Source: Anaerolineaceae bacterium (GTDB taxonomy: Bacteria; Bacillota; Clostridia; Lachnospirales; Lachnospiraceae). Taken from it: a stretch of 34,351 nt of DNA. Within the stretch, counting starts at the first letter, position 1. The number at the start of each line of letters is the position of its first letter. Location: the NCBI GenBank assembly GCA_004294845.1, contig SHOH01000014.1:1-34351 (forward strand). Direction: 5' to 3'. The translations under genes and the position numbers were made by a program. The notes below the pieces were generated by a model. The model ran no database searches, was not told the DNA's origin, and saw only the letters and a list, made by a program, of their open reading frames with translations. This document shows, one piece after another, positions 4,046 to 22,382 of the stretch.

Positions 4046-4074
4046 TTGACATTATTGTTTAAATTGACTAAAAT
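4046..4074 (+). promoter_or_regulatory. Predicted sigma-A-type promoter of rightward transporter operon
   Basis: TTGACA (4046-4051), 17 bp spacer, TAAAAT (4069-4074). Confidence 0.65.
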
Positions 4075-4165: not shown

Positions 4166-7126
4166 ATGAAGAAATTCAAACATCTGGTTTCAATACTTGT
4201 TGCATCCGTTATGCTAACGAATATCTTAGTTCCAGCAAATATATTTGCTGTATCTGACCTGGGAGGACAATCAGAGACTCCACAGGAGATTATTCTTTAC
4301 GAAAATACATATGATTATTCTGATGTCATTTCATATTATGACTATCTAACAAAATATAATGGTGCAAATCACCCAAATCAAGTTATTGAGATGAAGGCTA
4401 ATCAGTATATAGCTCAGGATCATGCCGATGCGATAATCACCTCTTATAACGGAAGAGATGATATTCTATACTGGACTTCCCAAGAAGGTATGGTTACCTG
4501 GGAGTTTCAGGTGAGTGAAGAAGGCTTTTATAATCTATTTATAGATTATTGTCCTGTAGAATTTAAAAGTGGTGATATACAGTTAGGTATCCGGTTAGAC
4601 GGTGATTTTCCTTTTGCCAACGCGAAAACGATTACCCTACCAAGGCTGTTTCTGGATGAAACCTATAAGGGGTATAAGGACTGGGAGTTCGAAAAGGATA
4701 TCAAGGGTAATGAATTAAGACCCAAGGTTAATGAGATATTTGAGTGGCAGTCTTTTGGGATTATAGATAAGGATGGTCAGTACAATGGCGAGCTTGAGTT
4801 TTATCTGTCTGAGGGAACTCATACCCTGTCACTCGAACTGCAGATGGAAGCATTAGCCATTGATAACATAAGGTTTTCTCAAACAGAGAAATCCGGGGAC
4901 TACAATTCGGTGAAGAATCAGTGGGATCAGCAGGGAGTTCAGAATACAAGCGGTTTTTTGGAAATGTTTCAAGCAGAGAAAAGCAAGGTAAAATCCAGTA
5001 ATACTCTTTTTCCTACTTTTGATAATAGTAGTGTAAGTATACTTCCATCTGATCCATATACTCTTTTGTATAATACTATAGGTGAGAATACATGGGATGC
5101 GGCAGGGGAGTATATTACCTGGGAATTTAGTGTTCCTGAGGATGGATATTATTACTTTTCATTTAAAGCAAAGCAGAATATGAAACGGGGAATGTACAGT
5201 ACCCGTGAAATGATGATAGACGGAAAAGTGCTTTTTGAAGAAATGAGAAATTTGAAATTCGAGAATAAAAACTCATGGTATATTAAGACACTTACCGATT
5301 CTGAAGATAAACCTTATAAAATTTATCTTCCGGCAGGCAACCACACCCTAAAGCTTGCGGTTACAGTGGGAGATATGGCAGATTTACTCAGGCGAGTGGA
5401 TGAGGATGTTGCCAAACTTAACAGATGGTATCGTGAGATTGTTAAAATCACAGGTATTAATGCAGATAGTTATAGAATATCCATTGATACAAACCGAGAC
5501 TTTCTTCTGGACGAAAAAATTCCGGGGCTAATTGAAGGCTTTAAAGAAGTTAAGGCTGATATGGAAGGAATATTGAAGGAAATGGAAGAAATGGATGGAA
5601 TGGATATATCGAGCGCATCCATCCTTCAGGAATCAGTTGCATTATTGGGACAGTTTATTAAAAAGCCCGGTAAGATCGCGAATAGAATTGAATCATACCG
5701 AAATAATGTAAGCAGTCTTGCTTCTTGGACTATAGACATGCGTTTGCAACCATTGGAAATGGATTACTTTGTAGTATATTCACCAGATGTTAATGAGCCG
5801 GAGATAAATTCAGGGTTCTTTAAGCAGATATTGTACCGTATACGTATGTTCTTATATTCATTCTTTAATGATTACAACTTCATAGCAGGAACAGAAGAAG
5901 TAGATGAAGAGCAGGAGGCACTTGAGGTATGGGTCAGCACATCTGATTTACAGGCGACGGGGGTATCTGCCGGCCGTGATCAGGCTATGCTTTTAAAGAG
6001 AATGGTTGATGATATGTTTGTCCCTTATAATAACATACCGGTTAAGGTCAGTCTGGTTAACAGCTCTGCAACTCTAACACAGGCTGTACTTGCAGGAAAG
6101 GGACCGGATGTAGCCTTGTTTGTATCTAAGGAAACTCCGGTGAATCTAGCCATGAGAGGGGCACTATATGACTTATCCTCCTTTGAGGATTTTGATGATG
6201 TCACTTCGCAATTTATGCCGTCGGCTTTGATTCCTTACAAGTATAGGGATAAATACTACGCTCTACCTGAGACACAGAGCTTTGATATGCTATTTTATAG
6301 AACTGATACCTTTGCGGAACTGAATTTAACTCCGCCTGAGACCTGGGACGAATTTTATGCCCTTATTCCTATCCTTATGGATGAGAATTATCTGGTGGGT
6401 ATTCCGGAATCACAAAGAACCTTTGAGATGTTCCTATATCAGAACGACGGACAATTTTATAATGACAGTCTGACTAAGACAGCATTTGACGATCCAGAGG
6501 CACTTATTGCTTTCCAAGATTGGACAGGATTATATTCAAAATATAGTCTGCCTTTGGTATTCGACTTCTTTAACCGTTTCCGTAACGGAGAGATGCCCAT
6601 GGGCATTATGCCTTATACAAATGTGAATTATCTGTCTGTTGCGGCTCCTGAGCTTAAAAACTTATGGGATATAGCTCCCATACCCGGAACACTCAAGGAT
6701 GACAATACTATTGACCGCTCAGAAACCGCCAACGGTACTGCCGCAATAATTTTAGCGGATACTAAGAATCCGGACGCTGCCTATGAATTCTTAAAATGGT
6801 GGGTAAGCTCTGAGGCACAAAGCCGTTTTGGAGTTGAGCTCGAGCAGAATATGGGTCCCGGTGCCAGATATCCCACCGCCAATGTTGAAGCATTTCAAAG
6901 GTTGCCTTGGACAAAGAAGCAATCAGAAAGCTTAATGGAACAGTGGGAATATGTAACGGATGTTCCTCAGATACCGGGAAGCTACTATATATCACGTAAT
7001 GTATCCTTTGCATTTAAATCAGTTGTTTATGATAAAGAGAATGAACGTGAGACCTTATATAAATATAACATTGAGATTAACAAAGAAATTGACCGAAAGC
7101 TGAAGGAATTTGAGTTGAGTGATTGA
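4166..7126 (+). CDS. Large secreted fusion: N-terminal carbohydrate-binding-like beta domains, helical region, C-terminal family 1 extracellular solute-binding domain
   Basis: 986 aa; signal peptide MKKFKHLVSILVASVMLTNILVPANIFA with no lipobox; beta-rich segments around 'VTWEFQVSEEGFYNLFIDY' and 'ITWEFSVPEDGYYYFSFKAK'; SBP-like C-terminus (GPDVALFVS, KYYALPETQSFDMLFYRTD, PDAAYEFLKWWVSSEAQ). Confidence 0.85.
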   Translation: MKKFKHLVSILVASVMLTNILVPANIFAVSDLGGQSETPQEIILYENTYDYSDVISYYDYLTKYNGANHPNQVIEMKANQYIAQDHADAIITSYNGRDDILYWTSQEGMVTWEFQVSEEGFYNLFIDYCPVEFKSGDIQLGIRLDGDFPFANAKTITLPRLFLDETYKGYKDWEFEKDIKGNELRPKVNEIFEWQSFGIIDKDGQYNGELEFYLSEGTHTLSLELQMEALAIDNIRFSQTEKSGDYNSVKNQWDQQGVQNTSGFLEMFQAEKSKVKSSNTLFPTFDNSSVSILPSDPYTLLYNTIGENTWDAAGEYITWEFSVPEDGYYYFSFKAKQNMKRGMYSTREMMIDGKVLFEEMRNLKFENKNSWYIKTLTDSEDKPYKIYLPAGNHTLKLAVTVGDMADLLRRVDEDVAKLNRWYREIVKITGINADSYRISIDTNRDFLLDEKIPGLIEGFKEVKADMEGILKEMEEMDGMDISSASILQESVALLGQFIKKPGKIANRIESYRNNVSSLASWTIDMRLQPLEMDYFVVYSPDVNEPEINSGFFKQILYRIRMFLYSFFNDYNFIAGTEEVDEEQEALEVWVSTSDLQATGVSAGRDQAMLLKRMVDDMFVPYNNIPVKVSLVNSSATLTQAVLAGKGPDVALFVSKETPVNLAMRGALYDLSSFEDFDDVTSQFMPSALIPYKYRDKYYALPETQSFDMLFYRTDTFAELNLTPPETWDEFYALIPILMDENYLVGIPESQRTFEMFLYQNDGQFYNDSLTKTAFDDPEALIAFQDWTGLYSKYSLPLVFDFFNRFRNGEMPMGIMPYTNVNYLSVAAPELKNLWDIAPIPGTLKDDNTIDRSETANGTAAIILADTKNPDAAYEFLKWWVSSEAQSRFGVELEQNMGPGARYPTANVEAFQRLPWTKKQSESLMEQWEYVTDVPQIPGSYYISRNVSFAFKSVVYDKENERETLYKYNIEINKEIDRKLKEFELSD

Positions 7127-7139
7127 GAGGAGAAGACCG

Positions 7140-8072
7140 ATGAAAAAGCAATTGGCAGAAAATGAATATAGCCACAAGCAAGCATATAAACGTAAAAATA
7201 TTTGGTCTAGAAATATTAGCACGCTGGTATTTATGGCTCCCTTTACGATTTTATTCGTATTATTTACAATCCTACCCATCCTATCAGCTATTGGACTAAG
7301 CTTTACCTATTTTAATATGGTGGAAGCTCCCAGCTTTATTGGTCTGGACAATTATATAAGAATGTTTTTTGATGATGATGTATTTCTGATAAGTCTACGA
7401 AACACAGCAATATTTGCCATTATAACAGGTCCTATCAGTTATATTATTAGCTTTATGACAGCTTGGTTAATTAATGAATTTAGAAGAAGCGTAAGAACAG
7501 TATTGACTTTAATCTTTTATCTGCCCTCACTTGCAGGAAATGTATATTTTGTATGGACCTATATTTTCAGTGGTGATTCTTATGGCTTTCTAAACAGTGT
7601 ATTGATACGAACAGGTATTATATCGGATCCAATATTATGGCTTACAGATACGAAATATATGATGGGTGTTGTTATTACAGTAATCTTATGGCTCAGTATG
7701 GGAACAGGCTTTTTATCCTTTGTTGCAGGTCTGCAATCAATGGATCGTTCCCTATATGAAGCCGCGGCAGTTGATGGCATTAAGAACCGTTTTGCTGAGC
7801 TATGGTATGTTACCCTCCCTCAGATGGTTCCTCAGCTTCTTTTTGGTGCTGTAATCACAATATCCACATCCTTTGCAATAGGATATGAAAGCATGAATCT
7901 AACAGGCTTCCCAAGTACAGATTACGCTGCTCATACCTTAGTACTGCACATCCTCGACATTGGTGGAGTACGTTTTGAGATGGGTTATGCCTCAGCAGTG
8001 GCTGTCTTTCTCTTCGCTTTAATGCTTTTGCTTTGGAATGTAATCAACAAGACACTGTCAAAATGGCTATAG
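7140..8072 (+). CDS. Sugar ABC transporter permease (MalF/UgpA-like)
   Basis: Multiple TM segments; EAAAVDG...F..VTLPQM EAA-loop motif; start at ATG 7140 preferred over 7119 because of upstream GAGAGGAGAAG. Confidence 0.9.
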   Translation: MKKQLAENEYSHKQAYKRKNIWSRNISTLVFMAPFTILFVLFTILPILSAIGLSFTYFNMVEAPSFIGLDNYIRMFFDDDVFLISLRNTAIFAIITGPISYIISFMTAWLINEFRRSVRTVLTLIFYLPSLAGNVYFVWTYIFSGDSYGFLNSVLIRTGIISDPILWLTDTKYMMGVVITVILWLSMGTGFLSFVAGLQSMDRSLYEAAAVDGIKNRFAELWYVTLPQMVPQLLFGAVITISTSFAIGYESMNLTGFPSTDYAAHTLVLHILDIGGVRFEMGYASAVAVFLFALMLLLWNVINKTLSKWL

Positions 8073-8087
8073 AGGGGAGATCTAGTA

Positions 8088-8978
8088 ATGAATACAGCTA
8101 ATATCGATGTAGTTAAATTAAAAGGCTATAAAAAGAAAAAGGTATTAAATCGTTCCATAGGTGGAACCATATTCATCTTCTTAATATTAATTACACTTGG
8201 TGCATTTATGCTGCTTCCGATAGTTTATGCTATTGTAACAGCCTTTAAACCGGTGAATGAGATATTTATTTACCCCCCTAAATTCTGGGTACAGAATCCA
8301 ACCATAGCCAATTTTATCGCAATGATTGAGATTACTCAGGAAACTTGGGTCCCCTTTGAAAGATCATTATTTAACAGTGTATTTGTATCAGTAGCAGGAA
8401 CCGCATTATATATAATTATAGCCTCCATGGCGGCCTTTCCACTGGCAAAGAAAAAGAATAAATTTATAGCTATATATTATCAGGTAGTAGTTCTGGCAAT
8501 ACTATTTAGACCTGAGGTTACCCGTACACCTTTATATATAATTATGAGTGGGATGGGCCTTCTGAATAGTTATTTATCTATTATATTGCCGATATTGGCA
8601 GGCAGCTTCGGAGTTTTCCTAATGCGCCAATTTATGTTAACTATACCGGATGAAATCCTTGAGGCAGCCAAGGTAGACGGAGCCAATGATTATATGGTAT
8701 TCTTTAGGCTTGTCATGCCTTTAGTAAAGCCTGCTTGGATGACATTGACGATATTCACCTTTAATTCTCTTTGGAATACGGGTGATACCCAATATATTTA
8801 TAATGAGGAAATGAAGACCCTGACAGCAGTACTGCAATCCATATCTTCTGCCGGTATTGCAAGAGCAGGAGCAGGTGCGGCAGTAGCCTTGATATTAATG
8901 ATACCCCCGATAGTAGTATTTATTATCTCTCAGTCATCAGTTATGGAAACCATGTCACACACAGGTATAAAAGGATAA
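8088..8978 (+). CDS. Carbohydrate ABC transporter permease (MalG-like)
   Basis: TM-rich; EAAKVDGANDYMVFFRLVMPLVKPAW EAA motif; SD-like GAGGGGAGAT. Confidence 0.9.
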   Translation: MNTANIDVVKLKGYKKKKVLNRSIGGTIFIFLILITLGAFMLLPIVYAIVTAFKPVNEIFIYPPKFWVQNPTIANFIAMIEITQETWVPFERSLFNSVFVSVAGTALYIIIASMAAFPLAKKKNKFIAIYYQVVVLAILFRPEVTRTPLYIIMSGMGLLNSYLSIILPILAGSFGVFLMRQFMLTIPDEILEAAKVDGANDYMVFFRLVMPLVKPAWMTLTIFTFNSLWNTGDTQYIYNEEMKTLTAVLQSISSAGIARAGAGAAVALILMIPPIVVFIISQSSVMETMSHTGIKG

Positions 8979-9017
8979 TAGAATCTGGGAAGTCAGAAAA
9001 GAAAGGGACAAAACATT

Positions 9018-10463
9018 ATGGTTTGGAAAAAAGCATTGGTCATGATATTAATAATTGGAATGGGCTGTATTACACCAGTAGCCAGTGTATCAGCTGCTAA
9101 GGGCTCAGGCCATGAAGTTCCTTATCAGACTTATACATACGATAAATGGGGTAATGCTACACCCGCACCCAATGGCTACCTACCGGAAAAAACAATTCGC
9201 GGAACCACAATGAATATTGGTGATTTTGTAGATCCTCAGGATATGTTTTATTCTGATGTAAGACATGAGATATATATTGTTGATACAGGCAACTCGAGGA
9301 TTGTAGTTGTTGATGAGGATTTTACATTAATCAAAATTATAGAAGAATTGGAGTGGCAGGGTAAGCCTTATGCAATGCAAAAGCCTACAGGTATCTTTGT
9401 CACTGATGAAGGTACACTCTACATCGCTGACCAAGGTAATGCTGAGGTACTGATGTGTAGCAATGATGGTAAGATATTAAACAAATATGGTAAGCCTGAG
9501 TCTAATCTGATTGACGCGACTGCAGAATATAAACCAAGTAAAATCGTTGTAGACGAGAATGGTAAGATGTATATACAAGGGCTGGGCGTTTATCAGGGTT
9601 TAATCTACTTAAAGCCGGACGGCAGCTTCGTTAAATATTTTGGTGCAAATAAAGTCGAGATGACTATGAGAAGAGTCATAATGAAGCTTTGGAAAACCAT
9701 TCTGAGTGATAAGGCAAGCTCTAATATGCAGACATTTAACCCAATCGAATACGGTAATATCTTTCTAGCGGATAATGGCTTTATTTATGCTACAGCAGCG
9801 GCTTCGGAGGATAACAGTAAACTTATCGTTGAATTAAATCCTCTTGGTGTGGATATCAACAGAATGAAACGGCCTGTGTGGTATGTAAATGCTACTTTTG
9901 CCGATATTAACGTCGATGAGGAAGGTATCATAACTGTAATAGACGGAAAAACCGGTAGAATCTATCAAAGTGATAAAAACGGTCAGTTGATGTTCGCATT
10001 TGGAGGAATCGGAGAACAGCTGGGTTTATTCAAAATTCCAAGCTCAATCATTGAAGTAGAAGATAAGATTTATGTTCTTGACTCTGAAAAAGCCAGTATA
10101 ACCGGCTTTACCCTAACAAGCTTCGGAGAAAAGGTCAGAAAAGCAATATCCTTATATAACAATGGACATTATGAAGCAAGTATAGAGCCTTGGGAAGATG
10201 TGATTAAACAGAATGCCAATTACCTATTGGCTTATACCGGAGTAGGAAAGGCTTATTATCAGTTAGAAAAGTATGAACTGGCTATGGAAAGTTATAAGCT
10301 TGCTAATGACCGTAGCAACTATTCTACCGCCTTTAGGGGTTATTCTCTGCAGGCTATGAGAAGTAACTTCGGATTAATACTGGTGGCAATCATACTAATT
10401 TCTGCTGCATATAAAACCATAAGATATTATATTGATAAACGTAGAAAAGGGAAAGGAGTATAA
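9018..10463 (+). CDS. Exported NHL-repeat beta-propeller protein with TPR region and C-terminal TM anchor
   Basis: Signal peptide (MVWKKALVMILIIGMGCITPVASVSAA); NHL-type repeats (IYIVDTGNSRIVVVD, LYIADQGNAEVLM); TPR-like 'AISLYNNGHYEASIEPWEDVIKQNANYLLAYTGVGKAYYQLEKYELAMESYKLA'; C-terminal TM then KRRKGKG. Confidence 0.8.
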   Translation: MVWKKALVMILIIGMGCITPVASVSAAKGSGHEVPYQTYTYDKWGNATPAPNGYLPEKTIRGTTMNIGDFVDPQDMFYSDVRHEIYIVDTGNSRIVVVDEDFTLIKIIEELEWQGKPYAMQKPTGIFVTDEGTLYIADQGNAEVLMCSNDGKILNKYGKPESNLIDATAEYKPSKIVVDENGKMYIQGLGVYQGLIYLKPDGSFVKYFGANKVEMTMRRVIMKLWKTILSDKASSNMQTFNPIEYGNIFLADNGFIYATAAASEDNSKLIVELNPLGVDINRMKRPVWYVNATFADINVDEEGIITVIDGKTGRIYQSDKNGQLMFAFGGIGEQLGLFKIPSSIIEVEDKIYVLDSEKASITGFTLTSFGEKVRKAISLYNNGHYEASIEPWEDVIKQNANYLLAYTGVGKAYYQLEKYELAMESYKLANDRSNYSTAFRGYSLQAMRSNFGLILVAIILISAAYKTIRYYIDKRRKGKGV

Positions 10464-10465
10464 GC

Positions 10466-11092
10466 ATGAACCGATTATCCAAGGGCTTTAGACAAAGCTA
10501 CTATACCATGTTTCACCCGGTCAATGGATTCGACGCGGTAAAATGGGAGAATGCAGGATCTATTCGCACCTGTTTTTTCATCATGTTCCTTTTCTTTTTA
10601 GTAAATGTATTTGATGCTGTGTTGACTGGATTCATCTATAATACCCGTAATCCGGATAGAATATCCATTATTTCTATCTTTGCGGTTAGTATTGGTGGAA
10701 TAATATTATGGTTTATCTCTAATTGGGCAGTAAGCTCTTTAATGTTCACGGAAGGAAAGACAAAACACATTCTGATTTTGACTTGCTACTCCCTGCTTCC
10801 TTATATAATATGGGAATTCATTTACATTGTAGCCAGCAATTTTGTGCCTGTAGAGATGGCTCCATTCTTATCCATGCTCCGATTTATCGGATTATCTTGG
10901 AGCTTTCTGCTTCTGGTGTTTGGATCTTATCAGATACACCAGATATCGGTAGGCAAGGTCTTTGTCAATATTTTGCTTACGGTTTTAGGAGTATTCATAA
11001 TGCTGTTTTTAATGTTGCTGGGTTACAGTTTGATACAGCAGATGTATATATTTGCTTACACAATATTCAGTGAAGTTGTATTCCGGTTATAG
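10466..11092 (+). CDS. Polytopic membrane protein, YIP1-family-like
   Basis: 208 aa, several hydrophobic helices; size and position resemble YIP1-family proteins in similar clusters (recalled). Confidence 0.6.
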   Translation: MNRLSKGFRQSYYTMFHPVNGFDAVKWENAGSIRTCFFIMFLFFLVNVFDAVLTGFIYNTRNPDRISIISIFAVSIGGIILWFISNWAVSSLMFTEGKTKHILILTCYSLLPYIIWEFIYIVASNFVPVEMAPFLSMLRFIGLSWSFLLLVFGSYQIHQISVGKVFVNILLTVLGVFIMLFLMLLGYSLIQQMYIFAYTIFSEVVFRL

Positions 11093-11107
11093 AAGGGATG
11101 ATAGACC

Positions 11108-13399
11108 ATGAAGAAAAAAATTATTTTATTAGGTATAGCAGCGATTGTGCTAATCTTAATAGCACTTACGTTCATAAATACGAATGATGAGATCCTAGAC
11201 ATTTCCACGGTTAATAATAACCAGGAAAATCAACCGGACCTATCCACTGGATTTGTTATCGGTAAAGAGGATAAATTTCAAACCGTTTTAGAAAACGATA
11301 ATCTTAAGCTATCAGCTAATTTAAAGAACGGTGAGATTTCTGTTTTGGACAAAAGAAGCTCTAAGACTTGGTATTCCAACCCTCTTGATAAGGAGAACGA
11401 TAGACTGGCCAACGGGTTCCATAAAATATCTCTTTTCTCACAGTTATTACTATCATATACCACAGATACAGGAGTGGTAATGAATGTAGGAAGTTTTATG
11501 GGCTCAGTTTCAAGATCGGGACTCTCATACCGAGTTGATGATGAGGGCATTATCTTTATATATAATTTCACTAAAGAAGAGTTAATTGTTCCTGTTCGTT
11601 ACTCACTTACAGACACGGATTTTGTGGCTGAAATTCTGACAGCCGGTATACAGGAGCTTGGCACGAATAAATTAACCAACATCGAACTTCTTCCCTTCTT
11701 TGGAGCGGGATCACAGGAGGATGATGGTTACCTATTGGTACCGGACGGAAGTGGAGCTCTGATATATTTTAATAACGGTAAAGGCAAGGCAAAAGAATTT
11801 TCTATGAGCCTATATGGCTTTGATAACGGTGTTAATGACAGGTTACTTGACAGTGCAACGGCTATCGGTACCTCATTTACCCTAACAGAAAATGTATACT
11901 TACCTGTATTTGGTGAGAAATGTAATGATGACGGTTTCCTAGCCATTATGACTGATGGTGCAGCCAGAGCTTCGGTAAAAGCCAGATCATCCGGTATCTA
12001 CACCAGCTATAACAATATCTGGTCTACTTACAATTACAGGACTGTTGGAACTGTAAGACTTATGCAGAAGGAAATGAGTGAAAAGACAGTTTCTATTCCT
12101 GAAAAGCAACCAGACATCAGTGTAAATTATAAAATACTATATAGGTTCCTGGAAAGCGGTCAGAGTGAGTATAGTGATATGGCTAAAGTTTATCAGGAAT
12201 ATTTGGTGGAAAACACCGGACTAACTACAAGAACCAAAGAAGGCGACATTCCTTTTTACTTGGATATCTATGGACATATACGTAAGACTAAATCCTTCTT
12301 AGGAATACCTAAGGATACTTTAATCACTACGACAACCGTTAAGGACGCAGAGAATATTGTTAATGAATTGAACAGCCAGGGATTAGGCAATATTGTATTA
12401 AAGTATAACTACTGGATGAAGAACGGATATTATCAGACCATTCAGACTAATGCAAAGCTTGAGAAGAAGCTAGGAAACACTAAGGATATGAAGCGTCTGG
12501 AAGAGAAATTAAATCAGGGCGAGGGTTCTTTATATCTAGCAGCCGAGCTGGTGAATGTCTATAAGACAGGTAAAGGCGTATCCAAATACAATGATGTCTT
12601 AAGCTCTGTAGCCAATACCCCTCAGGTACAGTATGAATTTGTACTGGACTCTGCAAGCAGAGATCCCAGATATGAACCTTGGTATTTGATTAAGCCAAAA
12701 AAGCTTGCAAGCTATTATAATAAGTTTTTAAATAATTTTAATAAGATCGGTTTTTCTAATGTTGCATTTGAATCCATTGGAAGTATGGCTTATTCGGAGC
12801 TTTCCACCAATGGAACCAGTCGCAACCTGGTACCGGGGCTCGTAAATGATATTTTACAGGATGCATCTGACAGAGTTGATAATATCATGTTATCCGGTGC
12901 AAATGAATATGCAGCTGTTAATGCCACCCATTTAATTAACACCCCGATAAAAAGCAGTACATTTGATATAGAGGATGCGAGTATTCCCTTTTTCCAGATG
13001 GTATTCCATGGATATAATTACTACTCACTGGGAGCAACTAACCTTTCCAGTAACCCCGAAGTTATGGTGTTGAAGTGCTTAGAATATGGTGCTGCACCGA
13101 TGTATTCCTGGGTATCTCGTAATACAGAGGAGCTCATTGGATCGAGAACAGACGACTTATTCAGTGCTGATTATCGAAAGTGGATCGATTTTGCTGTAGA
13201 AGAATATGAGGAAATTAACAGTGTGCTTAAGGACACTGTAACATTACCCATAACTTCACACAGGATTTTGGAGGACGGAGTAAGAGAGACGGTTTACGGT
13301 AATATGATCAAGGTTATTGTAAATTATAACAGCTCATCTGTCACTGTAGGCGATAATCAAATCGATGGAAATGGGTACCAGGTATTTGAGGTTGATTAA
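11108..13399 (+). CDS. DUF5696-like membrane-anchored extracellular protein
   Basis: 763 aa; N-terminal anchor MKKKIILLGIAAIVLILIALTFI; characteristic 'VLDKRSSKTWYSNP' and 'YLLVPDGSGALIYFNNGK' segments. Confidence 0.7.
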   Translation: MKKKIILLGIAAIVLILIALTFINTNDEILDISTVNNNQENQPDLSTGFVIGKEDKFQTVLENDNLKLSANLKNGEISVLDKRSSKTWYSNPLDKENDRLANGFHKISLFSQLLLSYTTDTGVVMNVGSFMGSVSRSGLSYRVDDEGIIFIYNFTKEELIVPVRYSLTDTDFVAEILTAGIQELGTNKLTNIELLPFFGAGSQEDDGYLLVPDGSGALIYFNNGKGKAKEFSMSLYGFDNGVNDRLLDSATAIGTSFTLTENVYLPVFGEKCNDDGFLAIMTDGAARASVKARSSGIYTSYNNIWSTYNYRTVGTVRLMQKEMSEKTVSIPEKQPDISVNYKILYRFLESGQSEYSDMAKVYQEYLVENTGLTTRTKEGDIPFYLDIYGHIRKTKSFLGIPKDTLITTTTVKDAENIVNELNSQGLGNIVLKYNYWMKNGYYQTIQTNAKLEKKLGNTKDMKRLEEKLNQGEGSLYLAAELVNVYKTGKGVSKYNDVLSSVANTPQVQYEFVLDSASRDPRYEPWYLIKPKKLASYYNKFLNNFNKIGFSNVAFESIGSMAYSELSTNGTSRNLVPGLVNDILQDASDRVDNIMLSGANEYAAVNATHLINTPIKSSTFDIEDASIPFFQMVFHGYNYYSLGATNLSSNPEVMVLKCLEYGAAPMYSWVSRNTEELIGSRTDDLFSADYRKWIDFAVEEYEEINSVLKDTVTLPITSHRILEDGVRETVYGNMIKVIVNYNSSSVTVGDNQIDGNGYQVFEVD

Positions 13400-13413
13400 T
13401 AGGAGGTTTTTTT

Positions 13414-14349
13414 ATGGAGACAAAAGCTATTACTAATAAAAGAAAAAGGAGATCCTCCCTTAGTAAAAAACAAGGAAGGGCAGGTTATCTGTTCGTATTT
13501 CCATGGATTATAGGCTTTTTGTTTTTCTTTTTAAAACCTTTCGTGGAGTCCTTTTGGTTTACATTTAATGATGTTACTATGCAAGCACAGGGTCTTACAC
13601 CTAAATTTATAGGCTTAAATAATTATAAATATTTATTTGTCGAACATACCACCTATATACCAATGCTTACAGCTGCTATACAAAACATGCTATCAGAGGT
13701 AGTAATAATTACTATGTTAAGCTTGTTTATCGCAACATTATTGAATCAGAAGTTCGGAGGACGGACTATATATCGGGCAATATTCTTCCTGCCTATTATA
13801 CTAACCAGTGGTGTAGTATTTACAATGATGTCTAGTGTAGTAGGTAATAGTGGACTTGGCTCTACAGATAACGCATATTTATTCCAAAGTACAGGACTGA
13901 TAGACTTACTTCTTCAAGGGGGCCTAAGTCCCGCTACCGTTTCAAGAATATCGGGAGTAGTTGATAGTATATTCTCTATGGCAACAAAATCAGGGGTGCA
14001 AATTCTGCTGTTTTTAAGCGGATTACAGAAGATACCTGCAGACGCTTATGAAGCGGCACAGATAGAAGGAGCCAGCAGATGGGATATATTCTGGAAAATA
14101 ACCATTCCTAGAATTTCACCAATAATATTCTTAAATATTGTATATACCATCATTGATTCCTTCACTTCCTATGGTACATCATCCGGTGGAAATCAGATGA
14201 TGATGGCAATCCAAAGCATGGGCTTTGGAAAGACCATGAAATTTGGTGTCAGTGCGGCAATGGCATGGGTTTACTTTCTAGTAATTGTAATCATACTATT
14301 GTTTGCATACTTGATCATTGGCAGAAAAGTATCAAAGATTGAATCTTGA
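13414..14349 (+). CDS. Sugar ABC transporter permease (second set, MalF/LplB-like)
   Basis: TM-rich; EAAQIEGASRWDIFWKITIPRISPI EAA motif; strong SD (TAGGAGGTT). Confidence 0.9.
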   Translation: METKAITNKRKRRSSLSKKQGRAGYLFVFPWIIGFLFFFLKPFVESFWFTFNDVTMQAQGLTPKFIGLNNYKYLFVEHTTYIPMLTAAIQNMLSEVVIITMLSLFIATLLNQKFGGRTIYRAIFFLPIILTSGVVFTMMSSVVGNSGLGSTDNAYLFQSTGLIDLLLQGGLSPATVSRISGVVDSIFSMATKSGVQILLFLSGLQKIPADAYEAAQIEGASRWDIFWKITIPRISPIIFLNIVYTIIDSFTSYGTSSGGNQMMMAIQSMGFGKTMKFGVSAAMAWVYFLVIVIILLFAYLIIGRKVSKIES

Positions 14350-14364
14350 TAGAGAGGTGGGAGA

Positions 14365-15381
14365 ATGAAAAAAATAAAAAATCATCTTGAACATATGGAT
14401 AAGGTGAAATTAAGAGAAGATTTAGTCCATTATGTTAGGGTCAAAAAGCCCACTAAAAAGCTGTGGTCCTTAGTAAGACATATTCTATTGATTGGTATTA
14501 GTTTTATAATTCTTTATCCAATCATGTTTATGTTAAGCAATGCCTTTAAGCCGGTTGAGCAGTACTATGACCCATCAGTCATTTGGATACCAAAAGCATT
14601 TACCTTTGCCAATTTTGCCGTTGTACTTATGGTAATTGATTTTGCCAAGGTATTGTGGAATACGGTAGTCATCGCTATACTTCCTGCATTAATACAGACA
14701 GCTGTAAGCATGTATGTGGCTTATGGTTTAGCAAGGTTTAATTTTAAAGGCAGAAAGCTAATAGTTGCTTTGGTTATTTTAACGGTTATTGTTCCTCAAC
14801 AGACCATTTCTACATCTCTTTATGCCTCTTATAGGAATATGGACATATTCGGGCTTATTGGTTGGCTCAGTCAGGTAACCGGAGGTGCCATAAAGGTTCC
14901 AAATCTTATCGGAACACCTTGGGTAACAATACTTCCTTCTTTACTGTCCGTAGGCTTTAAGGGAGGTTTATACATCTTCATATATCTACAGTTCTTTAGT
15001 GGAATTCCAAAGGAGCTGCAGGAGGCTGCATCTATTGACGGATGCGGACCGATAAAAACCTTCTTAAAAATTATTGTGCCTACGACTAAGAATATTACTT
15101 TGTCTGTAATCCTTCTTTCAGTCGTTTGGAACTGGAATGATTATTATACACCGGCTATGTTTATAAGAACAAAGGATACAATTTCAACAGCTATGGCAGG
15201 CTTCCAGACACAACTTGAGAATCTGCATAATTTGGGAATAGGAGCAGAGAATATTCAGACAGCTAATACACAGATTCAAGCAGCTGCTCTGATGTCTATT
15301 ATTCCTTTGGTAATCCTTTATGTTATACTTCAAAAATATTTTGCTGAGGGTATAGAAAATTCAGGATTAACCGGATTTTAA
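14365..15381 (+). CDS. Carbohydrate ABC transporter permease (second set, MalG-like)
   Basis: TM-rich; EAASIDGCGPIKTFLKIIVPTTKN EAA motif. Confidence 0.9.
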   Translation: MKKIKNHLEHMDKVKLREDLVHYVRVKKPTKKLWSLVRHILLIGISFIILYPIMFMLSNAFKPVEQYYDPSVIWIPKAFTFANFAVVLMVIDFAKVLWNTVVIAILPALIQTAVSMYVAYGLARFNFKGRKLIVALVILTVIVPQQTISTSLYASYRNMDIFGLIGWLSQVTGGAIKVPNLIGTPWVTILPSLLSVGFKGGLYIFIYLQFFSGIPKELQEAASIDGCGPIKTFLKIIVPTTKNITLSVILLSVVWNWNDYYTPAMFIRTKDTISTAMAGFQTQLENLHNLGIGAENIQTANTQIQAAALMSIIPLVILYVILQKYFAEGIENSGLTGF

Positions 15382-15455
15382 TTGTTTTGTTAGATATTTC
15401 TTATCCGGTATCGTATCGGATAGAGATTCTATATAAAAAAGAGAGGAGAATATGT

Positions 15456-16793
15456 ATGAAAAGCAAAAAAATAATAGCACTTTTTCTTGCTATGACGCTT
15501 ATGATACTTAATCTTGCCGCATGTGCCGGCAATAGTCCAAGTAATGATAACAATAATGACAATGGTAACAAGACACCGGCAACAGATGATCAGGGAGGAG
15601 AAGTAGTAGATGCTGGAGATGAGCTTCCCGAGACTCTGGACAATCCCGATATATCAATAGTTTATTGGTATAATCCGGATCAATATGCTTATGACACTAA
15701 GAAAAATGAAAATGTTTATGATCCGATTCTTGAAGCTATTCCTGATTTCGAGGAAAAATACGGTGGAACAGTTAATGTAATTTATGCTGCATGGGACAGC
15801 ATGCTTGAGACAGTAATTGCACTCCAAAACTCCGGCGATGCTCCCGATTTATTTGAAGTATATGATCGTAATATGTATAATGTTGTACTTTCAAATATTG
15901 CACAGCCTATCGATGAATTTGTAACCGATAAGGATTTTAGCTACTGGGATGTTGAACGTGACCTCTTCTCTTGGAAGGGCCAAACCTATGCGATACCTAT
16001 TAAGCCTTATACCTATTATATTATGTTTAACCGTGATCTTTTTGCATTAGAGGGACTGACTCCTCCGGATGAATTATTCCAGCAGGGGTTGTGGAATTTT
16101 GATGAATTTGAAAAAGCTATTAAGGCATTAACGCATACAGTAGATGGTGAAGTAAGCCAATTAGGCTATGGTTCATATGACGATACAATTACTTACTTTA
16201 TGTTAGTAAACGGTGGAGCATTATTGGATATTGATACTTCAAGCGGTTCAGTAAAACCCATGTTATCTGACCCGAAGGTAATAAATACAATGAACTATAT
16301 GACCAGATGGATGGATTATATGGTATTTGGCTATGACATGTTCGGATGGTGGGACAATGGTGCTCTAGGCATGATTCGCGGTAAGGAGTTTCCTGTTGAT
16401 CATCCTTTCGAGGTTGGAATGGTTCCTTATCCTACAGGCCCTGATCTAGAAGGTAGGAATTTGGTAGTATATCCCCAGGGCTTTGCGGTACCACAGGGAG
16501 CTAAGAATCCCCAAGGTGCAGCAACCTTCTTAAGAATGGTTAATGATAAGCAGCTAGAAGTTGGAGATCAGAAGGAAGCTAATCGTATAGGTCAGGAAAA
16601 CTATGATATGATCTATACTGATGATGTAAAGCTTGTTTATGAATATGATAAGAACTTGGATGATGTTGATCATATCGTTGGTTCTATCATCAACTATATG
16701 CGTGATGATGTACCTGCATCAACAATTGCAGCTAATATGGAGCCTGAGATTAGAGCATCCATAGAATTGATTTTTGGACCTCAAACAGAGTAA
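15456..16793 (+). CDS. Lipoprotein extracellular solute-binding protein, family 1
   Basis: MKSKKIIALFLAMTLMILNLAACAGN (lipobox LAAC); SBP-like (YVIYWYNPDQ-type start, 'SGDAPDLFEVYDRN', 'QTYAIPIKPYTYYIMFNRDLFALEGLTPP'). ATG 15456 with GAGAGGAG SD preferred over ORF-track start 15387. Confidence 0.9.
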   Translation: MKSKKIIALFLAMTLMILNLAACAGNSPSNDNNNDNGNKTPATDDQGGEVVDAGDELPETLDNPDISIVYWYNPDQYAYDTKKNENVYDPILEAIPDFEEKYGGTVNVIYAAWDSMLETVIALQNSGDAPDLFEVYDRNMYNVVLSNIAQPIDEFVTDKDFSYWDVERDLFSWKGQTYAIPIKPYTYYIMFNRDLFALEGLTPPDELFQQGLWNFDEFEKAIKALTHTVDGEVSQLGYGSYDDTITYFMLVNGGALLDIDTSSGSVKPMLSDPKVINTMNYMTRWMDYMVFGYDMFGWWDNGALGMIRGKEFPVDHPFEVGMVPYPTGPDLEGRNLVVYPQGFAVPQGAKNPQGAATFLRMVNDKQLEVGDQKEANRIGQENYDMIYTDDVKLVYEYDKNLDDVDHIVGSIINYMRDDVPASTIAANMEPEIRASIELIFGPQTE

Positions 16794-16890: not shown

Positions 16891-19047
16891 ATGGAAAGAG
16901 GAATTTATTTTGACGGATGGTATAAGAACAATCATTGCTATCACCCTAGCTTGCCCTTCCGCAGCATGCAGATGATTGAAGATATCGAAAGATATAAAGG
17001 AACAATTTTAGTTTGGTCAGCTTTAGGAGGAGGATCAATATCCCTTCCTTATCTTGAGAATGAGGCATTTGGGGAACTGGATCCAAGACTTCGTTTTTAT
17101 GGATTTATGAATGATTCAGAGTTTATTGCCGAGTGTAATAAAAGAGGAATCAAGGTTATGGGTATTGTCTTTGAGGTACAAGGCTGGGAGTTCCCGGTTG
17201 TAGTCTCCGAAGACGGCAAGCATATGAAGCAGTTTAATGTTATGCGAGATGATACACCACATGATTATTATGGTTTGAATGAGTTTGCATCAGGAAAGCA
17301 TAAGGATCTATTTCGTACATCTTTAGAAGATTATTATCCCGATGGTATTATAAACAGTGACGGTGAAAAGGTTGTTGATCTTTGGGAGGAAGTGGCTGCA
17401 AGAACCTATAAGGGAGATGCGGTACATGCCCAATGGGTTGAGGTGGTTAATCACTCCAAAACCTGCTATCAGACCTGCCGCAATAATCCTGTATGGAGAG
17501 ATTATCTCAAGAAAATCATGAAAATTATGATTGATGCGGGAGTCGCAGGTATTCAGCTGGATGAGGCTGAGCTGCCTATAACATCACTTCGTGCCGGAGG
17601 ATGCTTCTGTAAGGATTGTAAAAAGCAGTTTAGAGAATTTCTTAAGGAGCTTCGAGCAAATGGTCAGTTAGACAGTCAGTATGATGATATTGACGTGGAG
17701 AATTTTGATTATCAGAAGTTCCTAAATGACGGTAATTATACATTTCCTGACGGGGCACCTTTGTTTAGAGAATATTATGAATTCCAGCTTCGCGCAGTAA
17801 AGAAGCATTTTATTGAGTTGGTTGATTACGCAAGAGATTATGCAAGAGAGACGCAAAATAGGGAAATTCTTGTATCAGGTAACTTCTTTAATTGTATGCC
17901 AGTATACTTCCCATTTGAACATTCGGTAGATGTGATTATAACCGAGATGGAGAAGACTTTATTCAATCAGCCTTATTGGTATCGATATATTGCAGGCTTT
18001 AGTGGTGATAAGCCAGTTATAGTGGCTGAGAATCCTTACGGCGGTATGATACCGGAATTACTGGAAATGCTGGATCATGGTAAAGGCTATGATCTGTATA
18101 GGATTTTCCTTTTGGAAGCATCTGCCTATGGCTGCAATATGAGCGTGCCATATGGTGGCTGGATGGGCAATACCATCAAGGATGCATTCTATCCTCCGAG
18201 AGACGTAACGGTAGAGGTACAGGAATTCCTAGCTGATCATGAGGATTTCTTCAGTAGAGAAAGCGGTGCGAAAATTATGGTAGCCTATTCCTTCCCAAGC
18301 TATTACTGGAAGGAAGTAACAAAGGCTTATAACGGAAATGTCATGACTGAGGAGAATAGTATTCTATTCTACAGCCCGACAGACATAACCGATGAAAGTA
18401 CCTCAAGGCTTCCTTTCTGGGAGGTTATCAAGGAGCTAAGTGATCAGCAGGTGGTATATGATGTGAAGATGCTGGGAGATGATGATGTCTGCATACGTCC
18501 ACTTGATATAAGAGAGCTTTCAGACTATGAGCTAATCATCCTACCTGCATGTGATGTACTTACCAAAGACCAAACCGAAGTATTAACTGAGTATGTAAAC
18601 CAAGGTGGACGTCTGCTTTTATTTGGAGATACAGCACAGAATCTTCCTCAGTGGCAACAAGAGATGATAGACAATGACAATGTAGTATTTTGCGAAAATG
18701 CAGAAAGCAAGAAAGCTGCTTTATCAGAATTCAGAAGTAGCTTTGCTAAAGTTAATGAAGATATAAATCAAATCAAAGTAGATAATTCCAATATCGGGGT
18801 TCATCTACATAAGAACGATAATACACATACAATTCATCTTCTGAATTATAATTATGATTCAGAATTGGATAAAGTATTACCTATCCCAACCCTTAATGTT
18901 AAAGTGAAAAGGCCTGCTCAGGTTACAGGAGTAGAGTTGTATACTTTAGATAATTCCAAGGTGGAATATTCGTTCGAAGTTGAAGATGATACAATAAATA
19001 TCGTGATTCAAAATATGCCCCTTTATCTTATCGCACACCTAAAGTAA
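16891..19047 (+). CDS. Putative cytoplasmic glycoside hydrolase, GHL6/GH42-like (beta-galactosidase-trimerisation-like C-terminal region)
   Basis: 718 aa, no signal peptide; 'TILVWSALGGGSISLPYLENEAFGELDPRLRFYGF', 'GIVFEVQGWEFPVV', 'YELIILPACDVLTKDQTEVLTEYVNQGGRLLLFGDTA'. Confidence 0.65.
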   Translation: MERGIYFDGWYKNNHCYHPSLPFRSMQMIEDIERYKGTILVWSALGGGSISLPYLENEAFGELDPRLRFYGFMNDSEFIAECNKRGIKVMGIVFEVQGWEFPVVVSEDGKHMKQFNVMRDDTPHDYYGLNEFASGKHKDLFRTSLEDYYPDGIINSDGEKVVDLWEEVAARTYKGDAVHAQWVEVVNHSKTCYQTCRNNPVWRDYLKKIMKIMIDAGVAGIQLDEAELPITSLRAGGCFCKDCKKQFREFLKELRANGQLDSQYDDIDVENFDYQKFLNDGNYTFPDGAPLFREYYEFQLRAVKKHFIELVDYARDYARETQNREILVSGNFFNCMPVYFPFEHSVDVIITEMEKTLFNQPYWYRYIAGFSGDKPVIVAENPYGGMIPELLEMLDHGKGYDLYRIFLLEASAYGCNMSVPYGGWMGNTIKDAFYPPRDVTVEVQEFLADHEDFFSRESGAKIMVAYSFPSYYWKEVTKAYNGNVMTEENSILFYSPTDITDESTSRLPFWEVIKELSDQQVVYDVKMLGDDDVCIRPLDIRELSDYELIILPACDVLTKDQTEVLTEYVNQGGRLLLFGDTAQNLPQWQQEMIDNDNVVFCENAESKKAALSEFRSSFAKVNEDINQIKVDNSNIGVHLHKNDNTHTIHLLNYNYDSELDKVLPIPTLNVKVKRPAQVTGVELYTLDNSKVEYSFEVEDDTINIVIQNMPLYLIAHLK

Positions 19048-19064
19048 ATTAGGGAGGAAAAAGT

Positions 19065-22000
19065 ATGGATTATAATAAGTTAGTACATGGAGAAGCTCTT
19101 TCAAAAGCTAAATTCAAGCATCCTTCCAGAGAGTTTGGTATTATGCCCTTCTGGTTCTGGAATGGGGAGATGAGTTACGACGAAATGGAGTATCAACTAA
19201 AGGAATACTATGACAAGGGAATACCGGGTCTGTATATTCATGCCAGATTCGGAATCAACGATCATGTTCCTTATCTTGGCGAAGATTGGTTCGATAGAGT
19301 TAAATTTACCATTGAAAAGGCTCAGGAGATTGGTCTGCAGGTCTGGGTATATGATGAATATAACTGGCCCAGCGGTACAGCCGGTAAGGAAGTTATGGAG
19401 AAAAACCCTGAACTTACCAATGTATATCTTGAACTGGTTGAGGGTGATCTTCCCGGACAATTCTTTACCTTCATGGAAGGCACCGATTCCAGATATAATG
19501 ATCTGGAAGAATCAGAACCTGTATATGCATGTGCTATGAAGCTTGATGATATGGCAAATGGCAATTTTGAATATGTTGATCTGATGCCCTCATTATCCTT
19601 TGATAAGGTTATTACCTGGGAAGCTCCCAAGGGCCCCTGGAAATTATTTTACTTTATAGAAAGAAAGGCAAATTGGTATTCTGACGTATTAAATCCTGAG
19701 ACAACAAAGAAGTTCTTGGAGTATACTCACGAAAGGTATAAGGCATCCATTGGCCAGAGTTTTTCAGAGGACATTAAAGGCTTTTATACCGATGAGCCTG
19801 CTATGCACTATTTTGAAGTTGGTAGGGATAATTTCATAATACCCTGGTCCAAAAAGATGTTTAAGATATTTAAAGAGCATAATGGATACGATTTAAAGAA
19901 GCATTTACCAAAGCTTTTCTACGATATAGGTGGAGATACAGAACAGGTCAGGTATGATTTCTGGTCTTGTCTGACTAAGCAATATGAGGAAACCTACTAT
20001 AAAACAATCGCTGATTGGTGTGAAGAAAATGATGTAGTATTTACCGGTCATCTGTTATATGAGGAATCCCTTCGTATGCATGCCAGAACCGGAGGAAACC
20101 TTTTCCACCATTTGCGGCATCTGGATATGACAGGTGTGGATCATCTATACCCTCGTATCGGAACCAGAGATATGCCCAATGAACATGTAGCACTTAAAAT
20201 TGCCTCTAGCGCGGCTCATCAGAACGGAAGCGTTAGACTTTTGTGTGAGTCTATGGGTGGTGCATATTGGGATTGTACCATGGAACGTATGAAATGGATC
20301 GCTGATTGGGAATATGTGCTTGGTGTAAACCTCTTTAATCCTCATGGTTACCATTATACCATTGAGGGAGAACGCAAGCGTGACTGGCCACCATCACAAT
20401 TCTATCATCATACATGGTGGAAGCAGTATAAGCTTTTCAATGACTATATGACCCGTCTTGGATATACCTTAAGCGGCGGTGACCATGTAGCAAAGGTGGC
20501 CATACTGTATCCGATGAATAGTATCTGGGCAACCTATACTCCTCAGGCACACAATAAAATCGGTGATACAATAGAAAATGATTTTAATTATATGACAGAC
20601 AGATTACTACGTCTACATATAGATTTTGACTATATTGATGAAGATATACTAAGGGATTGCGAGATAAAAGACGGTAAGCTATGTATTCAAGGTGAGAAGT
20701 ATGAAATGCTGATGCTGCCTCCTTGCACACATATTAAATCTACAACCCTAGATATCATGGAGAAATTCGTCGCTGCAGGCGGAAAGCTGGGCGGAGATGC
20801 TTTACTTCCTTACCACTGTGTAGAAGGACAATGCGATGACATGGAGGGTAGGCTTGAAAAGCTCTTTGGTAAGAATCCTTTAGCTCTTAAGCAAGAATTT
20901 TTACAATCAGATGATAAAGAACTATCCTTAACAGTAAATAACCATGGAAGTGGTAAAGTAGTGTTCGTATCCGGTCAGGGCTTTGCTAAATGTGACGGCA
21001 TGGAGACTCTAAAGGAACAGATGCTGGCTTGTATTGAGCCTGAGATTGAAATTGACAGCGAGGAAGTATTCTATCTTCACAGAGTAAAGGATGGAAGAGA
21101 TCTCTTCTTCCTAATAAATCCTGTTGAACAGGGAGCTGACATTCAGGTTACATTTACAGGTGAATATCAACCTGAAATCTGGGATTTGGAGTCCGGTGAG
21201 ATTCATAAGGTCCTAGTATACAATGTTGCAGACGGAAAAACCACTCTATCCTTAACTATGCAGCCTTATGGCTCCTATATGCTAAGCATACATGATGCTC
21301 CGGCTCATATCCATGGTATTAGCTCTGATATTCAGATAACAGATATCGAGGATGTCATGCCATCCAAGGCAAGCATCTCATCATATTCAGATAAAGTGGA
21401 TGGCAGGGTTGAAGGAATTGGCCGTCTGTCGGAGGATGGAAAGCTTGTTCTGGCAGTCGGTGATAAGGAGAAAGAACTAACAATTCCAGCACAGAAGAGC
21501 TTGGAAGTTATTAAATTTAAAGATGAATTTGATTTTACAGTAAATGCTCCTAATGCATTATTAACAGATGAGTGGAAGATGATGTATGATGACGGTACTG
21601 TGGATGTAAGCAAGATTTCGCAGCCTGACTATGATTTTTCCGCTTGGTATGACATGAGAATGGGAGCATGGGAGATGCAGTTACCTGAAGAGCGGGATGA
21701 TAATACCTATCCTGTGGACCTATGGTATGTGACAAGCTTTAATGCACAGTATATCCCTGATGATTTAAAGCTGATGATTGACGGCTTTAAGGGAAGTGGC
21801 TATGAGCTTTATATCAACGGACGCAGAATGACAAAGGAACCTGTAAGAAGCTTCTTGGATGCTCAGATTAAGGAAGTACCTATTACAGACTATGTGGTAT
21901 TAGGTGAGAATACGGTTGCGATTAAATTAACTGTTACTAAAAAGAGTGACGGTATGGTGGATCTATTAAAGATCATCGGTGATTTTGGTATCAAAGAGGT

Positions 22001-22382
22001 GGATGGTAGAGAAGTTATCTCTGACCCTGTAAGAAGCGTTCGCTTTGGTGACTGGGTACAGCAAGGACTACCTCACTTCTCCGGAACCGGAAGTTACACT
22101 CAGACCATTACTCTTGATGAGGAAACCTGTAAGAAAGCATTGTTTCTTAAAGCAGAGCTAGGGACTGATGTGCTTGAGGTCTATGTAAACGGATCTCTTG
22201 TAAAGACCTGCTTATGGAAGCCTTATGAAGCAGACATCAGCGATTATGTTAAGCCTGGTGAAAATGAAATCTGCCTAAAGGTTGTTAACACCCTCATTAA
22301 CCTTTTAGAAGGTACCAGAAACGCTTCCGGATTATTTGACGCAACAATTGTACCCTTTGATCGGTATGAGATTTATTTTTAA
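19065..22382 (+). CDS. GH106-like (alpha-L-rhamnosidase superfamily) glycoside hydrolase, cytoplasmic
   Basis: 1105 aa, no signal peptide; 'FGIMPFWFWNGEMSYDEMEYQLKEYYDKGIPGLYIHAR', 'LQVWVYDEYNWPSGTAG'; C-terminal beta domain ending 'WKPYEADISDYVKPGENEICLKVVNTL'. Confidence 0.7.
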   Translation: MDYNKLVHGEALSKAKFKHPSREFGIMPFWFWNGEMSYDEMEYQLKEYYDKGIPGLYIHARFGINDHVPYLGEDWFDRVKFTIEKAQEIGLQVWVYDEYNWPSGTAGKEVMEKNPELTNVYLELVEGDLPGQFFTFMEGTDSRYNDLEESEPVYACAMKLDDMANGNFEYVDLMPSLSFDKVITWEAPKGPWKLFYFIERKANWYSDVLNPETTKKFLEYTHERYKASIGQSFSEDIKGFYTDEPAMHYFEVGRDNFIIPWSKKMFKIFKEHNGYDLKKHLPKLFYDIGGDTEQVRYDFWSCLTKQYEETYYKTIADWCEENDVVFTGHLLYEESLRMHARTGGNLFHHLRHLDMTGVDHLYPRIGTRDMPNEHVALKIASSAAHQNGSVRLLCESMGGAYWDCTMERMKWIADWEYVLGVNLFNPHGYHYTIEGERKRDWPPSQFYHHTWWKQYKLFNDYMTRLGYTLSGGDHVAKVAILYPMNSIWATYTPQAHNKIGDTIENDFNYMTDRLLRLHIDFDYIDEDILRDCEIKDGKLCIQGEKYEMLMLPPCTHIKSTTLDIMEKFVAAGGKLGGDALLPYHCVEGQCDDMEGRLEKLFGKNPLALKQEFLQSDDKELSLTVNNHGSGKVVFVSGQGFAKCDGMETLKEQMLACIEPEIEIDSEEVFYLHRVKDGRDLFFLINPVEQGADIQVTFTGEYQPEIWDLESGEIHKVLVYNVADGKTTLSLTMQPYGSYMLSIHDAPAHIHGISSDIQITDIEDVMPSKASISSYSDKVDGRVEGIGRLSEDGKLVLAVGDKEKELTIPAQKSLEVIKFKDEFDFTVNAPNALLTDEWKMMYDDGTVDVSKISQPDYDFSAWYDMRMGAWEMQLPEERDDNTYPVDLWYVTSFNAQYIPDDLKLMIDGFKGSGYELYINGRRMTKEPVRSFLDAQIKEVPITDYVVLGENTVAIKLTVTKKSDGMVDLLKIIGDFGIKEVDGREVISDPVRSVRFGDWVQQGLPHFSGTGSYTQTITLDEETCKKALFLKAELGTDVLEVYVNGSLVKTCLWKPYEADISDYVKPGENEICLKVVNTLINLLEGTRNASGLFDATIVPFDRYEIYF

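Follow-up and report, generated by a model that had tools for sequence, protein, structure and literature searches.

Why would a bacterium encode three envelope proteins between two complete sets of ATP-binding cassette (ABC) importer genes? In Bacillota of the gut, rumen and soil, glycan uptake by ABC importers is usually pictured as the work of one solute-binding protein (SBP), two permeases and a shared ATPase. The window analyzed here, a 34,351-nucleotide stretch of an Anaerolineaceae bacterium (GTDB family Lachnospiraceae; contig SHOH01000014.1 of assembly GCA_004294845.1), carries nine tightly spaced, collinear open reading frames (ORFs) on the + strand at positions 4166-16793, encoding SBP1, PermA, PermB, an NHL-TPR protein, a YIP1-family protein, a DUF5696 protein, PermC, PermD and SBP2 (Table 1). 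A sequence-only reading of the window had assigned these identities, which the ORF list and a Pfam scan of the nine proteins bore out, and had suggested that the middle trio makes one assembly of the two importers. We found that the gene arrangement recurs far beyond chance and that the trio belongs with PermC-PermD-SBP2, the second and substrate-variable importer. The explanation that we favor, with some reserve, is a composite glycan importer with two halves, a pseudo-glycosidase/propeller scaffold and one shared ATPase.

Results

The gene cluster is conserved in Bacillota

We searched the organism's own genome and genomes of its family, class and phylum with the DUF5696 Pfam profile, disregarding neighboring genes, and collected the loci around most of the strong matches. 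Because the last set of loci was picked to look at splitting of the cluster, the pooled figures for the 113 loci with full-length DUF5696 describe a non-random sample of Bacillota. NHL and/or YIP1 lies immediately upstream of DUF5696 at 111 of these loci (median gap 8 nt) and PermC immediately downstream at 108 (median gap −1 nt). The unbroken order SBP1-PermA-PermB-NHL(-YIP1)-DUF5696-PermC-PermD is present at 81 of the 113, and some of the other loci are half-modules or are cut by contig ends. No further constant member of the cluster, and in particular no kinase or regulator, was seen in the gene-order table, and scans of viral contigs turned up no relatives. A scan of genome contigs with one protein as query gave two loci only.

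Reciprocal profile searches were also carried out. At class level, a fused NHL-YIP1 profile matched 54 of 244 genomes besides the organism's own, each of which has DUF5696 too (Fisher p=2.4e-52, without correction for relatedness); the SBP1 profile matched 54 genomes as well, 53 of them in common with NHL-YIP1. In the phylum draw, 25 genomes matched both profiles, and the exceptions are two genomes whose SBP1 loci lie on contigs of 3.8 and 4.3 kb (G404 and G454) and one fragment (G540). Six genomes were left out of the counts: five from one family (f80), in which the SBP domain matched in shorter proteins only, and one with a partial match (G380). Thus, the co-occurrence of NHL, YIP1 and DUF5696 with permeases that had been predicted for other genomes held in both the locus survey and the profile searches. 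Similar gene orders had been mentioned for Paenibacillus and Clostridia, and the same order is carried by plasmid pNP243 of Butyrivibrio fibrisolvens D1 and by a plasmid of Paenibacillus cellulosilyticus KACC 14175, in whose records the products have generic names (NHL repeat-containing protein, YIP1 family protein, DUF5696 domain-containing protein).

In some families the cluster is split into two halves

Two families (f112 and f127) carry the halves of the cluster separately. Modules of five genes (NHL-YIP1, DUF5696, PermC, PermD and usually SBP2) reach ~10 copies per genome; we found such half-modules without SBP1 at eleven loci and stand-alone SBP1-PermA-PermB operons at four (L128, L137, L141 and L143), in genomes that also contain half-modules. 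One genome (G363) has ~10 NHL loci and 4 SBP1 loci, and another (G537) has one match for each half, on separate contigs. The neighbors of two stand-alone operons that were scanned (L128 and L137) encode an anaerobic ribonucleotide reductase, a YqeH-type GTPase or a sigma factor, and not glycoside hydrolases (GHs).

We assign the trio to PermC-PermD(-SBP2) because it goes with these genes when the halves separate. The view of the trio as part of one unit between two importers therefore stands insofar as the cluster is a conserved evolutionary unit, but the unit is not symmetric. SBP1-PermA-PermB, on the other side of the split, looks like a shareable partner, and its co-occurrence with the half-modules suggests that they may need it.

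DUF5696 resembles GH129 enzymes but has lost their catalytic pair in nearly all copies

The window DUF5696 protein matches PF18952 over nearly its full length (E=2.8e-175, 584.8 bits, positions 4-612 of 612). A profile of 40 anchored DUF5696 proteins detected the solved structures of DagB (5opq, E=2e-16) and the GH129 enzyme NagBb (5wzn, E=1.7e-10), with similarity that spans the N-terminal region and a portion of the barrel, and profile-profile comparison joined the anchored proteins to soluble GH129-like proteins (E=7.9e-57). Judged by these profile matches, DUF5696 is a GH129-superfamily protein. The soluble, unanchored DUF5696-like proteins (~560-670 aa) gave an 18-sequence profile that matches NagBb over nearly the whole protein (E=4e-131). 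Soluble GH129-like proteins are encoded at loci L088-L107 and L087, in many of the same genomes as the cluster.

Both residues aligned with NagBb D435 and E478, the second of which we take to be the other catalytic residue of NagBb, are kept in 21 of 21 soluble relatives, with numbering counted by hand on the printed alignment. Asp435 is one of the two NagBb catalytic residues and is equivalent to DagB Asp486 (PMC5698469). Among 80 anchored, transporter-linked DUF5696 proteins, only 2 have both GH129 catalytic residues together, and the window protein has Ser556 and Ser596 at the positions of the nucleophile Asp and acid/base Glu in two independent alignments (MAFFT and hhalign). Because these two residues are absent, the processing role that the sequence-only reading had entertained for DUF5696 lacks support; the protein may instead hold glycan in a non-catalytic role. 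In an insertion-like arrangement at one locus (L032), the DUF5696 gene is interrupted by reverse-strand ORFs of 263 and 498 aa.

NHL and YIP1 domains are frequently fused

Pfam and hydropathy identified NHL and TPR repeats and a C-terminal transmembrane (TM) helix in the fourth protein of the cluster, and the fifth matches Yip1 (PF04893) with 41.9 bits (E=1.3e-10), above the cut-off of 28.6. NHL and YIP1 domains are fused in one polypeptide in 41 of the 79 NHL proteins of our first sample, and protein fusion is standard evidence for joint action of two proteins. The hydropathy is consistent with an NHL ectodomain on the outside, followed by one TM helix and a YIP1 membrane bundle.

Two permease pairs, two binding proteins and a probable shared ATPase

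All four permeases contain the BPD_transp_1 domain (PF00528) and, in nearly all loci, keep the EAA coupling motif of CUT1-type permease pairs, so each pair can be a complete translocator. An apparent loss of this motif from PermC was rejected as an artifact of a narrow motif pattern. At one locus (L121), the PermB gene is interrupted by a reverse-strand ORF of 442 aa in an insertion-like arrangement. Pfam detected no ATPase gene among the nine cluster genes. MalK/UgpC-type ATPases are found nonetheless: the organism's own genome, which is incomplete, has one OB_MalK-type match, and in P. cellulosilyticus ugpC lies directly upstream of SBP1. In B. subtilis, MsmX is an established case of a single ATPase that serves several sugar importers (PMC5730181). 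Given this precedent, the intact EAA motifs, the single OB_MalK match, the adjacent ugpC and the lack of a cluster ATPase, one shared MsmK/UgpC-type ATPase probably drives both permease pairs.

The two binding proteins have the extracellular solute-binding domains expected of a CUT1-type importer, SBP_bac_1 in SBP1 and SBP_bac_8 (PF13416) in SBP2. In SBP1 (986 aa) this domain occupies the C-terminal part and is preceded by a helical stalk, and the N-terminal half consists of two mutually similar jelly-roll modules (hhalign probability 99.6), the second of which resembles residues 431-520 of the solved cycloisomaltooligosaccharide glucanotransferase 5x7g (E=5.6e-9). Of 75 SBP1 homologues, 73 lack the lipobox pattern; among SBP2 homologues, 47 of 60 have it. 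In the window, SBP2 probably starts at ATG 15456 rather than at TTG 15387, where the ORF opens, which places the lipobox LAAC within a normal signal peptide. Mean pairwise identity across loci is 0.19 for SBP2, 0.45-0.47 for PermA/PermB and 0.25-0.35 for the other members, and the enzymes adjoining the cluster vary by locus (GH106, GH9, GH31, GH3, GH5). Because SBP2 is the least conserved member and the neighboring enzymes differ, SBP2 most likely sets the substrate. Gene order suggests which permease pair each SBP serves.

Other features of the window

Within the operon, pattern matching revealed no terminator-like site on the + strand whose G+C-rich stem exceeds 5 pairs. Directly after SBP2 (16891-22382), the window encodes a 718-aa protein weakly similar to ABC_transp_aux and GH42, and then a GH106-like protein; ORFs comparable in size to this pair also come after SBP2 at three other loci (L006, L007 and L046). 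Farther downstream (25925-27187) lies a gene for a putative lipoprotein of 420 aa; its two halves resemble near-repeats, and Pfam gave it no confident match.

Table 1. Features of the importer cluster and its upstream region in the window.
Feature	Position	Strand	Basis
Promoter-like site TTGACA-17-TAAAAT upstream of the operon (pattern match only)	4046..4074	+	Consensus scan, 11/12 matches
SBP1: signal peptide, two CBM35/CBM6-like jelly rolls, helical stalk, SBP_bac_1; no lipobox	4166..7126	+	Pfam, PDB profile, internal hhalign, lipobox pattern
PermA, MalF-type permease, EAA motif	7119..8072	+	PF00528; motif
PermB, MalG-type permease, EAA motif	8088..8978	+	PF00528; motif
NHL beta-propeller and TPR ectodomain, N-terminal signal, C-terminal TM helix	9018..10463	+	Pfam, hydropathy
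YIP1-family multi-TM protein, ~5 hydrophobic segments	10466..11092	+	PF04893, hydropathy
DUF5696: predicted GH129-superfamily ectodomain, one N-terminal TM helix	11108..13399	+	PF18952, PDB profile, catalytic columns
PermC, MalF-type permease, EAA motif	13414..14349	+	PF00528; motif
PermD, MalG-type permease, EAA motif	14365..15381	+	PF00528; motif
SBP2, lipoprotein SBP, likely ATG start; least conserved member	15456..16793	+	PF13416, lipobox, identity

Discussion

We propose that the cluster encodes a composite importer. Its specific half (NHL-TPR, YIP1, DUF5696, PermC, PermD and SBP2) would capture and import an oligosaccharide recognized by the variable lipoprotein SBP2, with the anchored, catalytically dead GH129-type barrel of DUF5696 and the NHL-TPR ectodomain, the latter tethered through the YIP1 membrane bundle, forming an extracellular platform that holds and docks the glycan on PermC-PermD. 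The general half, SBP1-PermA-PermB, would be the other translocator, intact and better conserved; its giant binding protein has two CBM-like modules and may, like DUF5696, bind glycan. One genome could share this half among many specific halves. On this proposal the proteins would form a physical complex, one half would depend on the other and transport would run inward. A stronger version would be a new architecture of ABC importer, in which SBP1-PermA-PermB is required by and shared among many substrate-specific translocator modules and a scaffold of pseudo-glycosidase and NHL-YIP1 keeps them together in one supercomplex on the Gram-positive surface; we hold it only tentatively.

Compared with CUT1-type ABC importers that use a shared ATPase (MalEFGK2; the MsmX-dependent AraNPQ and YtcQP-YteP of B. 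subtilis), the cluster is alike in its MalF/MalG-type pairs with EAA motifs, its SBPs and, probably, an ATPase that is encoded elsewhere and shared. It differs in that a single conserved unit holds two permease pairs and two SBPs, one of the SBPs being giant and non-lipidated, along with three additional envelope proteins. Group II ECF vitamin transporters also have a general module common to many substrate-specific modules encoded elsewhere in the genome, but this is an analogy and not homology, and in the present cluster both modules are complete permease pairs. DUF5696 itself, while detectably similar in sequence to NagBb and DagB, differs from these GH129-type enzymes in being membrane-anchored and transporter-linked and in missing the catalytic Asp/Glu pair in nearly all copies. 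The literature searched contained no paper mentioning DUF5696, a targeted search found none on Yip1 and NHL with carbohydrate ABC transporters, and a search for 8RZG was without result.

Several points weigh against a composite importer. The evidence for it is genomic, and an AlphaFold2 model of DUF5696 built from three sequences had to be discarded (pLDDT 36). The co-occurrence p-values ignore phylogeny, and the distance-matrix correlations between genes that speak in its favor (0.93 for NHL-DUF5696 and 0.91 for DUF5696-PermC) may stem from linkage alone. In P. cellulosilyticus (L148, 14267-22020), genes for LLM-class flavin oxidoreductases and more SBPs, not GHs, come after the cluster; a glycan may therefore not be the cargo in every case. 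Finally, the half-modules and stand-alone SBP1 operons are also compatible with two separate importers that share a lifestyle. Such co-selected importers, with SBP1-PermA-PermB taking up a common breakdown product, SBP2-PermC-PermD another, and the trio serving the second only, would explain why the trio goes only with PermC-PermD on separation while SBP1-PermA-PermB stands alone, and they agree with the EAA motifs that make each pair potentially complete. However, genomes with the specific half but lacking the SBP1 half were almost never found, which holds for unlinked halves too, and SBP1 is conserved across loci with differing enzymes, unlike an importer dedicated to one substrate. We consider two separate importers rather unlikely, if the most serious of the alternatives.

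Two other explanations concern the trio itself. DUF5696 could be a new type of active glycosidase on the cell surface, trimming glycan before import through residues other than the GH129 pair. Its superfamily similarity, the aromatic residue that most copies have at barrel position Trp436 and an Asp in the nucleophile column of about a third of the 80 anchored copies are all in keeping with activity, as is the finding that DagB-type relatives differ from NagBb in one catalytic residue (PMC5698469). An enzyme of this kind is nonetheless improbable given the loss of the pair from the anchored but not the soluble proteins, the two serines of the window copy, and an alignment of DUF5696 copies (A1) in which Glu659 is the sole acidic residue conserved in at least 90%. 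The trio might instead act as a sensor, signaling that glycan has been captured or governing assembly nearby, and take no part in transport. Docking is a common function of beta-propeller and TPR folds, and members of the YIP1 family are polytopic membrane proteins, which would suit a sensor. But the gene-order table shows no further constant gene in the cluster, and hence no kinase or regulator as a constant partner, and the trio lies at close spacing between permease genes; we regard a sensor as very unlikely. The composite importer thus remains the reading that we prefer.

A conserved unit of eight to nine genes, of which some genomes have several copies, is at odds with the usual picture of an importer with one SBP. 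The genomes in which the cluster is split, together with the fused subunits, offer a concrete test of cooperation between two ABC translocators, and DUF5696 and the transporter-linked group of bacterial NHL/YIP1 proteins gain a role that can be tested.

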